Shown here in pieces: positions 10,055-27,331 of a DNA stretch of 64,000 nucleotides; position 1 is the first letter of the stretch, and each line of letters begins with the position of its first letter. The translations under genes and the position numbers were made by a program. Source of the stretch: Leptolyngbya sp. BL0902 (GTDB lineage: Bacteria; Cyanobacteriota; Cyanobacteriia; Phormidesmidales; Phormidesmidaceae); NCBI RefSeq assembly GCF_016403105.1, contig NZ_CP046155.1, positions 1,116,001 to 1,180,000 on the forward strand. Reading direction: 5' to 3'. Below the pieces are notes generated by a model. The model ran no database searches and was not told the origin of the DNA. It was given only the letters and a program-made list of their open reading frames with translations.

Positions 10055-10304
10055 GGCGGGGTTGACCAAAACGACTTAGAAGACCCTACACAGCCCTGGG
10101 GACTGATTCCTGTAGCGTTCCCAAAATTTGTCCCCACTGCTTCATGCACTTTGTCACTTCACCGCTTCATTTTCATATTCCATCAGACCGCTAGGGCGGC
10201 ATGACGCTGGGATATGTTGAGGCCCCTAGGGTAAGGCGGTGATCACGATAGACTGAGTAAAGCTAACATTCGCCCATCATACCCCCAGAGCCGTCAGAGC
10301 AACC

Positions 10305-10928
10305 ATGGCACTTGCAAGGGATCGCTTCACCCCATCCACTTCCCTGAGCTTTGATGCGTTCCTGGCTCAGTATGGTGATGACCATCGCTACGAACTCATT
10401 GATGGAGAGTTGTTTGACTTGGAACCGACAGGGCCACACGAGCAAGTAGCGGCGACCATTGCCCGCTGGCTCAACGACGACATCATGCAGCAAGGGGCTG
10501 ATTATTTCATCCCCCATCGCTGCTTAATTCAACCCCTCGCTAACCAGACCGGGTTCCGTCCCGATGTGATTGTCCTCGACCGCGCCGCTCTGGCTCAAGA
10601 GCCGCTGTGGGCGAGCCAACCCGTCGTTACTCTCGGCAGCACCATCAAATTTGTGGCGGAGGTCGTCAGCAGCAATTGGCAAAACGACTATGCCCGTAAA
10701 CTCGAAGACTACGCCCTGCTGGGCATCCCAGAATACTGGATTGTCGACCATCAGGGGCTGGGCGGCGAATTCTTCATTGGGCGTCCGAAACAACCCACCT
10801 TAACCCTTTGCATTTTGAATTCAGAGGGGCGTTATGAGCGGCAACTGCTGCGCGGCGACCAACGCATTACGTCATCTATCTTTCCCAACTTGAACCTAAC
10901 GGCCCAAGCCATCCTTGGGGTGGGATGA
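10305..10928 (+). CDS. Uma2 family (DUF820) putative PD-(D/E)XK nuclease
   Basis: A 207-residue member of a family greatly expanded in cyanobacteria. The typical N-terminus (SFDAFLAQY, YELIDGELFDLEPTGPHEQ), the central GFRPDVIVLDR with its candidate catalytic Asp, the FVAEVVSSNWQNDYARKLEDY stretch with candidate Glu and Lys, and GIPEYWIVD are all present. The fold is that of restriction-endonuclease-like nucleases, but no biological role has been firmly assigned. It is a single gene between the DUF3592 gene and atpB. Confidence 0.92.
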   Translation: MALARDRFTPSTSLSFDAFLAQYGDDHRYELIDGELFDLEPTGPHEQVAATIARWLNDDIMQQGADYFIPHRCLIQPLANQTGFRPDVIVLDRAALAQEPLWASQPVVTLGSTIKFVAEVVSSNWQNDYARKLEDYALLGIPEYWIVDHQGLGGEFFIGRPKQPTLTLCILNSEGRYERQLLRGDQRITSSIFPNLNLTAQAILGVG

Positions 10929-22845: not shown

Positions 22846-22929
22846 GTAGGTTGGGTGGCACGGCAGCAGAACCCAACAAGCCCAAATTCTCCGTAAGTGT
22901 TGGGTTCTGCTTTGCTGCACCCAACCTAC
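22846..22929. repeat. Long imperfect inverted repeat (84 bp)
   Basis: A 33-nt left arm beginning GTAGGTTGGGTG (22846-22878) pairs almost perfectly with the 32-nt right arm ending CACCCAACCTAC (22898-22929), with a loop of about 19 nt. TGTTGGGTT/AACCCAACA forms the inner stem. This kind of GTAGGTTGGGT palindrome is dispersed in many cyanobacterial genomes and behaves like a small non-coding mobile element. Confidence 0.9.
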
Positions 22930-23551: not shown

Positions 23552-24808
23552 ATGAAAAACCCTTGTCATCCTCGCGGCCCTTGGGTTTTGCGGTGGGGAT
23601 CCCTATGTTTAGATTCTAGTCAGCCCCAGGCCTATTACGGAACCACTCGGCTGTCGCTCCCACCAATGCAGTATCGGCTGCTGGAGATTTTACTGCGCTG
23701 GACCACGACCACGCTGAGTGCCCGCACGCTGGCGGAGCGAGGTTGGCCCGATGGCCCTTCCCCCAGCCAGGATAAGATTCGTCAGCAGATGCAGCAACTC
23801 CGGCAGAGGCTGAAGGAGGTTGGTGCCCCGGCAGATTTTATTACCATGGTGCCTCGACAGGGGTATCAACTGAACCCGCGCTATGGCGATGGGGCTGCTG
23901 GTTTTCTGGGCGAACCACCAACAATAGGAGCGTTAGAAGGTGCGGCAGGGAAGCCAGAACTTCACCACTCCGAGGCTCATAGGGCGTTTTTGGCGGAGAT
24001 GGCGAAGGACTTTTCTTGGCTGTCTACGGCCCCAGAGATTATGCAGCGCGTGGGCGAAAAGGTGGGCCATTATCTGGCGATTACCAACTGCGTCTTTGTT
24101 GAAATTGATGAGGCCCAAAATCAGGCGGTTGTCCAATACACCTGGCATACCGATGAGATGCCAGATGTGACAGGTACCTATCGGATATCTGACTTTATTA
24201 CCGAAGACTTTCGGCGAACGGCGCGGGAGGGGCATCCTGTGGTCATTCACGACACCCAGAATGATGGTCGCATCGACGGCCAGCGCTACGCGGCCTTCAA
24301 TATCCACACTTCTGTCACGGTGCCGTTTCACCGTCAGGGGGTTTGGAAGTATCTCTTTATGGTGAATGCGGCCCTTGCTCGTTACTGGCACAGCGACGAA
24401 GTTCAGCTTATTCAGGAGGTGGCAAACCTCACCTTTCTTCGCCTAGAACGGGCCTATGCCGAACAGGCGCTTCAGGCTTCGGAGGCCAAGTACCGGACTC
24501 TATTCAACGAAATGGATGAAGGCTACTGCATTGCCGAAATCCTATTCAATGGCGAGGGCAAACCGATAGATTACCGCATGGTAGAAGCCAACCCCCGGTT
24601 CGAGCAGTTGACGGCGCTATCGCTGGAAGTGGCCCTGAGTGGCCGTACCATGCGCGACATTGCCCCAGAGCTGGAGGAATACTGGTATGAGATCTATGGC
24701 CATGTGGCCCTTACCGGAGAATCGACCCGCTTTGAGCAGCAGGTGCGCCACTGGGGCCGCTGGTACGATGTCTACGCCTTTCGCATTGGTGCGCCGGAAA
24801 ACCGCTAG
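23552..24808 (+). CDS. N-terminal part of a winged-helix hybrid histidine kinase, ended by an in-frame amber codon
   Basis: 418 codons. Residues of about 12-108 form an OmpR/PhoB-type winged helix (QYRLLEILLRW, SARTLAERGW, TMVPRQGYQLNPRYG). Residues of about 140-312 are a GAF-like domain, and from about 315 a PAS domain starts (KYRTLFNEMDEGYCIAEILF). The PAS domain is cut: the frame reads GAPENR, then TAG (24806-24808), then [12 protein letters not shown], which is exactly the expected last strand and linker of a PAS domain, in the same frame with no base missing. The piece lacks the kinase core. It is either a broken gene, a readthrough product or a sequencing error. Confidence 0.88.
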   Translation: MKNPCHPRGPWVLRWGSLCLDSSQPQAYYGTTRLSLPPMQYRLLEILLRWTTTTLSARTLAERGWPDGPSPSQDKIRQQMQQLRQRLKEVGAPADFITMVPRQGYQLNPRYGDGAAGFLGEPPTIGALEGAAGKPELHHSEAHRAFLAEMAKDFSWLSTAPEIMQRVGEKVGHYLAITNCVFVEIDEAQNQAVVQYTWHTDEMPDVTGTYRISDFITEDFRRTAREGHPVVIHDTQNDGRIDGQRYAAFNIHTSVTVPFHRQGVWKYLFMVNAALARYWHSDEVQLIQEVANLTFLRLERAYAEQALQASEAKYRTLFNEMDEGYCIAEILFNGEGKPIDYRMVEANPRFEQLTALSLEVALSGRTMRDIAPELEEYWYEIYGHVALTGESTRFEQQVRHWGRWYDVYAFRIGAPENR

Positions 24809-27331
24809 GTGGCGATTCTGTTTAATGACATTACAGAGCGCAAGGCTGGCGAACTCACCCTAGAGCAGCAGATTCGCCAGGAGTATCTGCTGGGCGACAT
24901 TGCCCAGGAAATCCGCGAATCCCTGGAACTGCACCAGGTGCTGCGTACGGCGGTAAATCGGGTGAGGGATTGGCTCGCCTGCGACCGGGCCATTATTTTT
25001 CGCTTCCAGCCTACCTGGCAGGGGGAGGTGGTGATGGAGTCTGTGGGGGTCGGGTGGTTGGCAATTCAGTCCACCAACATCACCGATCCCTGCCTGGAAG
25101 ATCGCTTCATTGAGCCCTTTCGCCGGGGGTATGTGTCGGTCTTGAACGACATTTGCCAGCCCGATCTAGATCCTTGCTACGTTGAAATGTTGCAGGCATT
25201 CCAGGTGCAGGCCAGCCTCGCCGTACCAATTTTGAGGGGCAAAACCCTGTGGGGCTTGTTCATCGTCCATCAGTGCGATACGCCGCGCCAGTGGCAGGCC
25301 CCAGAAATTGCCATGCTGAAGCGCCTCACCACCCAGTTAGGCATCGCCATTCACCAGTCCGAACTCTATGCTCAAACCCGCAGCGAACTGTTGGCGCGGC
25401 AGGAGATGCAGGCGGTGATCGAAGCCAGTGAAGCCCGTTTTCGATCCCTCAGTACCGCTGCCCCGATTGGCATTTGCCAAACCACTGCCGAGGGGCTTTG
25501 TCTCTATGCCAATCCCCGCTGGTGTGAACTTTCGGGCCTATGCCCAGAGGATTGCCTGGGGGACGGCTGGCGGCAGGGGGTGCATCCTGAGGATAAGAAG
25601 GCCCTCACCACCGCCTGGGCCAACTACCTAGATGACCCTCGCCAGCCCATCCCAGACTTTCGCCTGCAAACTCCCACCGGAGTGATTCACTGGATTTCGA
25701 TGCGCGTGGCCCCAATTTTATCCCCCAGCGGCGACACCATCGGCCATGTCAGCACCGCCATCGACATCACCCAGCAAACCCACGCCCAACAAGCTTTGTT
25801 GGCCAGCGAACAGCGGCTTCAGGGGATTTTAGACAACGCCCCCGCCGCTGTCTATATGCTAGACCCCGACAACCGCCACGTTTTGGTCAACCAGAGTTAT
25901 GCCGACCTGCTGGCCTCCACACCAGCGGCCCTGGTGGGCCAGACCCTGCACGATCTGTGGCCCGCTGAGGTGGCCGATGCTTTGGTGGCCCAAAACCGCG
26001 CGGTGCTAGCGTCGGGCCAACGGCTGCAATTTGAGGACACGGTGTCCCTCGCCGACGGTCTCCACTACTACATCACCGCCAAATTTCCCCTCTACGATGG
26101 TGCAGGCAATCCCTACGCCCTCTGCGGCATCTCCACCGATATCACTGAACGCAAGCGGCTGGAGGCCCAGTTTTACCATGCCCAATGGCTAGAGAACCTG
26201 GGCACCCTATCCAGCGGCATCGCCCATGACCTGAACAACGTCCTGACTCCCATTCTGACCATGGCCCAAATCCTCCGGCTTACCCAGCCTGGAATGGATG
26301 CCAAGGGTCAAGAAAAACTGGATTTAATCGAGCGCAGCGCCAGGCGGGGGGCCAGCCTGGTGAAGCAGATTTTGGCCGTCACCCGTACCCCCAACGGCCA
26401 CCCTATCCCCATCGACCCGGTGGCGCTGCTGTGGGAGGAAATTGCCCTGATGCAGCAGAGCTTTCCCAAAACCATCCAGATTTACCCAGATCTACCGCCC
26501 TCGAAGTCCCAAACTCCACCCCTCGGCACCATTAGGATAGACCCCACCTACCTGCATCAAATTATCCTCAACCTGGGGGTCAATGCTCGCGACGCCATGC
26601 CCCAGGGCGGTCTGCTCACCCTGGCAGCGGCCCTGGTTGAGGTGGATGAGGCCATGGCCCGCCGCTTTCCCGAAGCCCAGCCGGGAGCCTACCTGATGAT
26701 TACCGTGGCTGATACGGGGGTTGGCATTCCCCCCGATGTGCAGCGGCAGATGTTTGATCCATTTTTTACGACCAAGGCCCCAGGCCAAGGCACCGGGCTG
26801 GGCTTGGCCACGGTGCGCGACCTGGTGAAGGCCAGCCAGGGCTTTATTCAGGTTTTGAGTCAGGTGGGCCAGGGCACCCAGTTCCAGATCTATTTCCCCT
26901 GCATCACCGAGCCGCTGCCGGAGCCTCGACCTCAGTTGAGCCCGGGAACGGGGCAACCCCAGCCGAGCGGGGCCACGGTACTGCTGGTGGAGGACGAAGC
27001 CCTGGGGCGCGATATGCTGCAAGCCCTCCTAGAAAGCCACCACTATCGCCTACTGCTCGCCCAGGATGGAGCAGCGGCTCTGGCCAAATACCACCAGCAC
27101 CGCCACAGAATTCAGTTGGTGATCACCGATATTATGATGCCCGTCCTAGACGGTCTCACCTTAATTGAAAGCCTGCGAAGCCAAGACCCCCAGGTGCCTA
27201 TCATCGCCTTCAGCGGTATTCCCAGCCACGCCAACTTTGCCCTCGCCGCCGGGGCCAATGTCTTCCTCGACAAGCCCTTTGATGCCGAAGCCCTGCTAAA
27301 CCAGGTGGCCCTGGCCCTGGATCCAGCCTAA
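24809..27331 (+). CDS. C-terminal part of the same hybrid histidine kinase (GAF-PAS-PAS-kinase-receiver)
   Basis: 840 codons that continue the frame of the preceding piece directly after its TAG; the first codon is GTG. Domains in order: the last PAS strand (1-12), a GAF domain of phytochrome type (about 20-195), two PAS domains (about 210-325 and 335-450), a dimerisation/phosphoacceptor domain with His in [14 protein letters not shown], an HATPase domain ([24 protein letters not shown]), and a receiver domain ([13 protein letters not shown]; Asp in [12 protein letters not shown]; conserved Lys in FLDKPFD). GTG could serve as a restart, but no ribosome-binding site is obvious before it. Restored, the protein would have about 1259 residues. 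Confidence 0.88.

Follow-up and report, generated by a model that had tools for sequence, protein, structure and literature searches.

Among the closest described counterparts of the locus studied here are in-frame stop codons held under purifying selection. In the cases treated in the available part of PMC7918605, TAG replaces CAG in an otherwise conserved gene, and the interruption is common to two or more species. A second point of reference is the loss of regulators in culture: the available part of PMC4632739 describes a Synechocystis substrain in which, among others, spkA carries an insertion and a hybrid sensor gene a deletion, which indicates that regulators do get broken in cultured cyanobacteria. 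Here we describe a sensor kinase gene of Leptolyngbya sp. BL0902, within a 64,000-nt stretch of its 4.71 Mb genome (hereafter the window). It resembles the former cases in that TAG has taken the position of CAG while the gene is otherwise conserved, and differs from them in that the stop is found in one genome only. The TAG is most likely a nonsense mutation of an ordinary kind, private to this genome, or else an error at a single base, with no new decoding trick involved.

Domain architecture of the interrupted kinase

The gene appears as two abutting open reading frames (ORFs) in the same frame, separated by a single TAG (Table 1), and apart from this codon it holds no stop or frameshift. 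When the frame is read through, Pfam annotates its 1259 residues in the order wHTH-GAF-PAS-GAF-PAS-PAS-HisKA-HATPase-REC: the Trans_reg_C match lies where it does in the 5' part alone, two GAF and three PAS_4 stretches follow, and the chain ends with HisKA (884-946), HATPase_c (997-1116) and Response_reg (1143-1252). The 5' part comprises the wHTH, GAF1 and a PAS1 that lacks its last strand. Its Trans_reg_C match reaches 39.9 bits, against a Pfam cut-off of 26.2, which identifies an OmpR/PhoB-type domain with predicted DNA binding. The 3' part has the features of a hybrid histidine kinase, namely the HisKA phospho-acceptor His, an HATPase_c domain, and the receiver Asp and Lys (Pfam and motif search). 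As judged from its sequence, this is a gene for a hybrid sensor kinase whose N-terminus carries a DNA-binding domain of the OmpR type. A preliminary description of this DNA had read it as two adjoining same-frame ORFs split by a single amber codon, and had reconstructed a chain of about 1259 codons with an OmpR-type domain, two GAF and three PAS domains, a kinase core and a receiver. The ORF coordinates and the open homologues described below bear out the split, and Pfam recovers every domain of the reconstruction.

Table 1. Features of the kinase gene (window positions).
Feature	Position	Strand	Description
5' part	23552..24808	+	418 aa, ATG start, TAG stop; Trans_reg_C 33-107, GAF 162-293, PAS_8 312-378 (Pfam)
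3' part	24809..27331	+	840 aa, open to its own TAA; last PAS1 strand, GAF2, PAS2, PAS3, HisKA, HATPase_c, receiver
In-frame TAG	24806..24808	+	CAG in the three closest homologues
PAS1 stretch	24446..24868	+	interrupted by the TAG just ahead of its last beta strand
GTG behind the TAG	24809..24811	+	codes for a conserved Val in the PAS strand; restart there only theoretical

The kinase of Phormidium sp. FACHB-1136 (G002; L068/L087) has the same domain set, likewise with the wHTH at the N-terminus and no receiver before it, and is 66% identical to the 5' part and 78% to the 3' part. The homologue from Nodosilinea sp. BSH.14 (G021; L069/L088) shares 71% identity with the 5' part over the 283 residues present on its contig, and 79% with the 3' part. 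Unlike the window gene, both have CAG at the site and no stop. Three further proteins (G013/L089, G025/L101 and G038/L102) also join a wHTH and a hybrid kinase in one chain. These differ from the window and Phormidium genes in carrying a receiver before the wHTH, giving the order REC-wHTH-(PAS/GAF)n-HisKA-HATPase with a second receiver; they too lack the stop. Among five long wHTH frames scanned, two were such kinases, and the remaining three had Hpt and receiver parts, accompanied in two of them by GGDEF. The wHTH-hybrid kinase fusion is thus not exceptional, and the missing N-terminal receiver is a modest variant. The preliminary description had proposed that sensing, phosphorelay and possibly DNA binding are fused in one protein; this holds as a reading of the domains, but not as an exceptional fusion, since comparable fusions, with a receiver added at the N-terminus, occur in at least three genomes.

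In both the window gene (23552-23900) and its Phormidium homologue (L087 6729-7080) the wHTH lies at the very N-terminus without a preceding receiver; in such an arrangement the domain would escape its usual phosphorylation control. When the 815 bases ahead of the window gene were searched with the G013 receiver at a threshold of E 10, nothing matched, and hence no remnant of an upstream receiver was detected there. The same 815-base gap contains an imperfect inverted repeat (window 22846-22929; arms of 33 and 32 bases, 85%), whose ends resemble GTAGGTTGGGT...ACCCAACCTAC and which we take to be of a repeat type common in cyanobacteria.

One gene across the stop

Abutment of two ORFs means little by itself, because the 51 window ORFs include three other same-frame abutting pairs. 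Two of these are pairs of different genes (a Na/H exchanger and FtsW; an aminotransferase and HU), and the third comprises an FMN reductase beside an ORF with no Pfam match. It is the homologue that decides. A search of 26 genomes of the same genus, the window's own included, returned those of Phormidium, Nodosilinea and G013 as the closest. In Phormidium, a single open frame of 1284 codons aligns to the 5' part (66% over 418 aa) and directly thereafter to the 3' part (78% over 838 aa), and the window pair is therefore more than a chance adjacency. Open frames also span the site in Nodosilinea (1146 codons, the 5' end being lost at a contig edge) and in G013 (1798 codons). All three encode Gln at the codon aligned to the TAG, and Val at the codon aligned to the following GTG (GTG in Phormidium and Nodosilinea, GTT in G013).

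Comparison of this codon with close relatives had been proposed in the preliminary description, and was extended to 12 distinct relatives, the more distant of which are PAS modules of other proteins and not orthologues; none has a stop at the site (Gln in six, Lys in three, Arg in three). Seven of these relatives, drawn from 53 other PAS1 matches within the genus, show six Gln and one Lys in an alignment across the site, the nine rows of which are the window, the seven, and L095, which repeats L089. In the five others, taken from named records (L070-L074), the codon reads Arg, Arg, Lys, Lys and Arg, respectively. The stop is carried by the window's genome only and, with a sense codon in the homologues and the rest of the frame open, the gene qualifies as nonsense-interrupted.

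No shared gene neighbourhood was seen when four stretches (8-14 kb each) were searched with the 51 window ORFs at a threshold of E 1e-10; the matches obtained were the two gene halves and one further match of 36% (window 10257-10928, in L087). A distant plasmid search with 901 bases over the stop returned five records with PAS-like pieces, at a coverage of at most 23%. The literature yielded no paper about the gene, judged by titles and the starts of abstracts.

To place the stop within the fold, PAS1 was modeled with AlphaFold2 from the nine aligned rows (mean pLDDT 84). The model assigns residues 121-128 to the last strand and puts the stop at residue 121. On this model, a product ending at the TAG would lack the last PAS1 strand and the helix after it, a product starting from the GTG would begin inside that strand, and the stop would not fall at a domain border. 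A location inside PAS1 argues against selected gene fission, in which termination at the TAG and restart at the adjoining GTG would yield two proteins, a sensor fragment with the DNA-binding domain and a hybrid kinase of 840 residues. Such a split is favored by the GTG directly abutting the stop, by the presence of the kinase core and receiver within the 840-residue part, and by similar lengths among other HATPase_c frames of the same genome. However, the GTG is an inherited Val codon, a cut just ahead of the last strand would leave a broken domain in both products, and no promoter-like site was found on the + strand near 24809. We consider fission the least probable of the readings discussed here. 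Restart at the GTG had been among the options of the preliminary description and gained no specific support, the codon being that of a conserved Val in the PAS strand.

Selection on the two halves and decoding of the stop

We estimated dN/dS separately on either side of the stop. In the 5' part (296 codons) it is 0.244 between the window and Phormidium genes and 0.239 between those of the window and Nodosilinea, against 0.223 between the two relatives; the corresponding values for the 3' part (836 codons) are 0.203, 0.205 and 0.174, all of them rough, because the window is strongly diverged at synonymous sites (0.68-0.93). YN00 supports the same conclusion, with 0.27, 0.19 and 0.29 for the 5' part and 0.14, 0.16 and 0.19 for the 3' part. 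Both halves are under purifying selection. If dN/dS is assumed to be 1 after loss of function, the neutral share of the path between the window and Phormidium genes is at most 16% (5' part) or 10% (3' part), these being 97.5% bootstrap bounds. Values of approximately 0.2 on both halves suggest that the stop is recent or an error, and would likewise result from a functional split or from leaky readthrough.

Counts of individual changes refine this picture. In PAS1, across the 122 columns where Phormidium, Nodosilinea and G013 agree, nine changes are the window's own, versus none on the Phormidium/Nodosilinea stem; over 836 columns of the 3' part the counts are 43 versus 27. Some excess is expected, because the window branch is longer than the stem. 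A slight loosening of selection in PAS1 is possible, and the stop would then be older than dN/dS suggests. The marks of a decayed pseudogene were not seen: dN/dS is 0.20-0.24, which apart from the possible slight relaxation in PAS1 gives no sign of relaxed selection, and further lesions are absent. The gene is at most a very young pseudogene. The preliminary description was right to report no visible decay after the stop, where the frame is open, the motifs are kept and dN/dS is close to 0.2.

This genome uses TAG as a normal stop codon: the triplet terminates 18 of the 51 window ORFs (non-overlapping stop-to-stop ORFs of at least 100 codons), the 5' part of the kinase included. A search of the genome gave 41 tRNA genes; every anticodon was read and none is CTA, although an intron-bearing or very divergent tRNA could escape the search. 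Indeed, tRNA-Leu(UAA), which is often intron-bearing in cyanobacteria, is also absent among the 41, which indicates that the search can miss intron-bearing tRNAs. A suppressor tRNA, the search for which had been suggested in the preliminary description, was rejected on these anticodons, and neither amber suppression nor reassignment of TAG is indicated. Matches of the 5' part elsewhere in its own genome were flagged as containing one TAG in two of 12 cases (C1:3957711 and C1:812987); both were rejected, as the alignments overrun the ordinary end of a response regulator.

The amber readthrough envisaged in the preliminary description thus finds no support in the form of a dedicated suppressor. 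Nor does the stop show the conservation among relatives expected of programmed readthrough (0/12), and the 90 nt from the stop onward, examined as one fixed stretch, fold no better than shuffled sequences (z -0.01), which gives no indication of a stimulating RNA structure. Leaky readthrough would need no such device: near-cognate tRNAs would decode the TAG, and the resulting low level of full-length kinase would be selected. The low dN/dS on either side of the stop is consistent with this, as is the argument, in the available part of PMC7918605, that many in-frame bacterial stops, e.g. those of the TAG/CAG family, keep dN/dS below 1. Against it stand the lack of the stop in all 12 relatives, of a CTA tRNA among the 41 and of a stimulating fold, together with the tendency, also given in that part of PMC7918605, of in-frame stops to persist for short evolutionary times only. 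We regard selected leaky readthrough as quite improbable. Low-level readthrough or restart as such is possible, without specific support for either.

Origin of the stop and its consequences

The reading we prefer, at a probability of roughly 75%, is that the TAG is a private and recent nonsense mutation that truncates the sensor kinase, real and not a base-call error. A single C-to-T transition would have converted the Gln codon CAG to TAG in the window's genome, either late on its lineage or in the culture or clone that was sequenced. Translation would normally terminate at this codon and release a wHTH-GAF-PAS fragment of 418 residues that lacks the kinase and has an incomplete PAS1. Of the kinase half, trace amounts at most would be made, and the signalling route through the protein would be broken or nearly so. 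A truncated protein without a kinase is thus the likely outcome. A very recent mutation had been one option of the preliminary description and a sequence error another; the Gln codon of the three closest homologues and the dN/dS values support this pair, the members of which are inseparable here because one genome alone carries the stop.

If the TAG were a base-call or assembly error, the organism would have a sense codon and an intact 1259-residue kinase. Such an error would leave one private base change in a gene otherwise free of lesions, with selection hardly relaxed or not at all, and this is what is seen (by dN/dS, and with the PAS1 counts noted). The rest of the assembly suggests otherwise. 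A count of internal stops, which is blind to frameshifts, gave 0/54 for HATPase_c, 1/79 for the receiver, 0/43 for GAF and 0/68 for ABC matches in the same genome, i.e. one in 244, found in a receiver without a start; the assembly is therefore not visibly error-rich. Moreover, long-read assemblies, of which this genome may be one, contain fewer substitution errors than indels. We judge an error to be unlikely. The same count also implies that such lesions are rare here, which weighs against the mutation we prefer. By a very rough estimate, from one event in roughly 30,000 domain codons, the genome could hold some dozens of them.

The receiver match in question (C1:332833-333096; L100, G000 C1:331000-336000) contains an in-frame TAA, covers profile positions 27-110 only, with its start missing, and directly precedes another receiver-containing reading frame. 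It is likely a second broken regulator in the same genome. A further HATPase_c match (G000 C1:2743713-2743958) spans profile positions 29-110, its open frame being only 90 codons long, and is possibly another broken or frameshifted kinase.

The CCAGG context of the site in the homologues led us to consider deamination as the source of the C-to-T change. CCAGG is a Dcm-like target, and the genome possesses two cytosine-5 methylases of the 'dcm' superfamily. Observed versus expected counts in the window are 153 versus 154.5 for CCAGG, 199 versus 168.3 for CCTGG, 71 versus 58.9 for CTAGG and 78 versus 60.7 for CCTAG. With CCAGG and CCTGG not depleted, and CTAGG and CCTAG somewhat above expectation, these data are mixed, and a methylation hotspot was not used as evidence.

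There is a slight chance that the TAG is a young switch in use. A selected split, or leaky readthrough, would then decouple the kinase half from the half with the DNA-binding and GAF input, and the cell would produce the truncated wHTH-GAF-PAS regulator in quantity but full-length kinase in small amounts only. Were the stop shown to be translated, the locus would serve as a clean natural experiment on how leaky an amber codon is in a cyanobacterium. Beyond annotation the finding signifies little: the locus should be recorded as one interrupted kinase and not as two genes, and its function should not be assumed in this strain.
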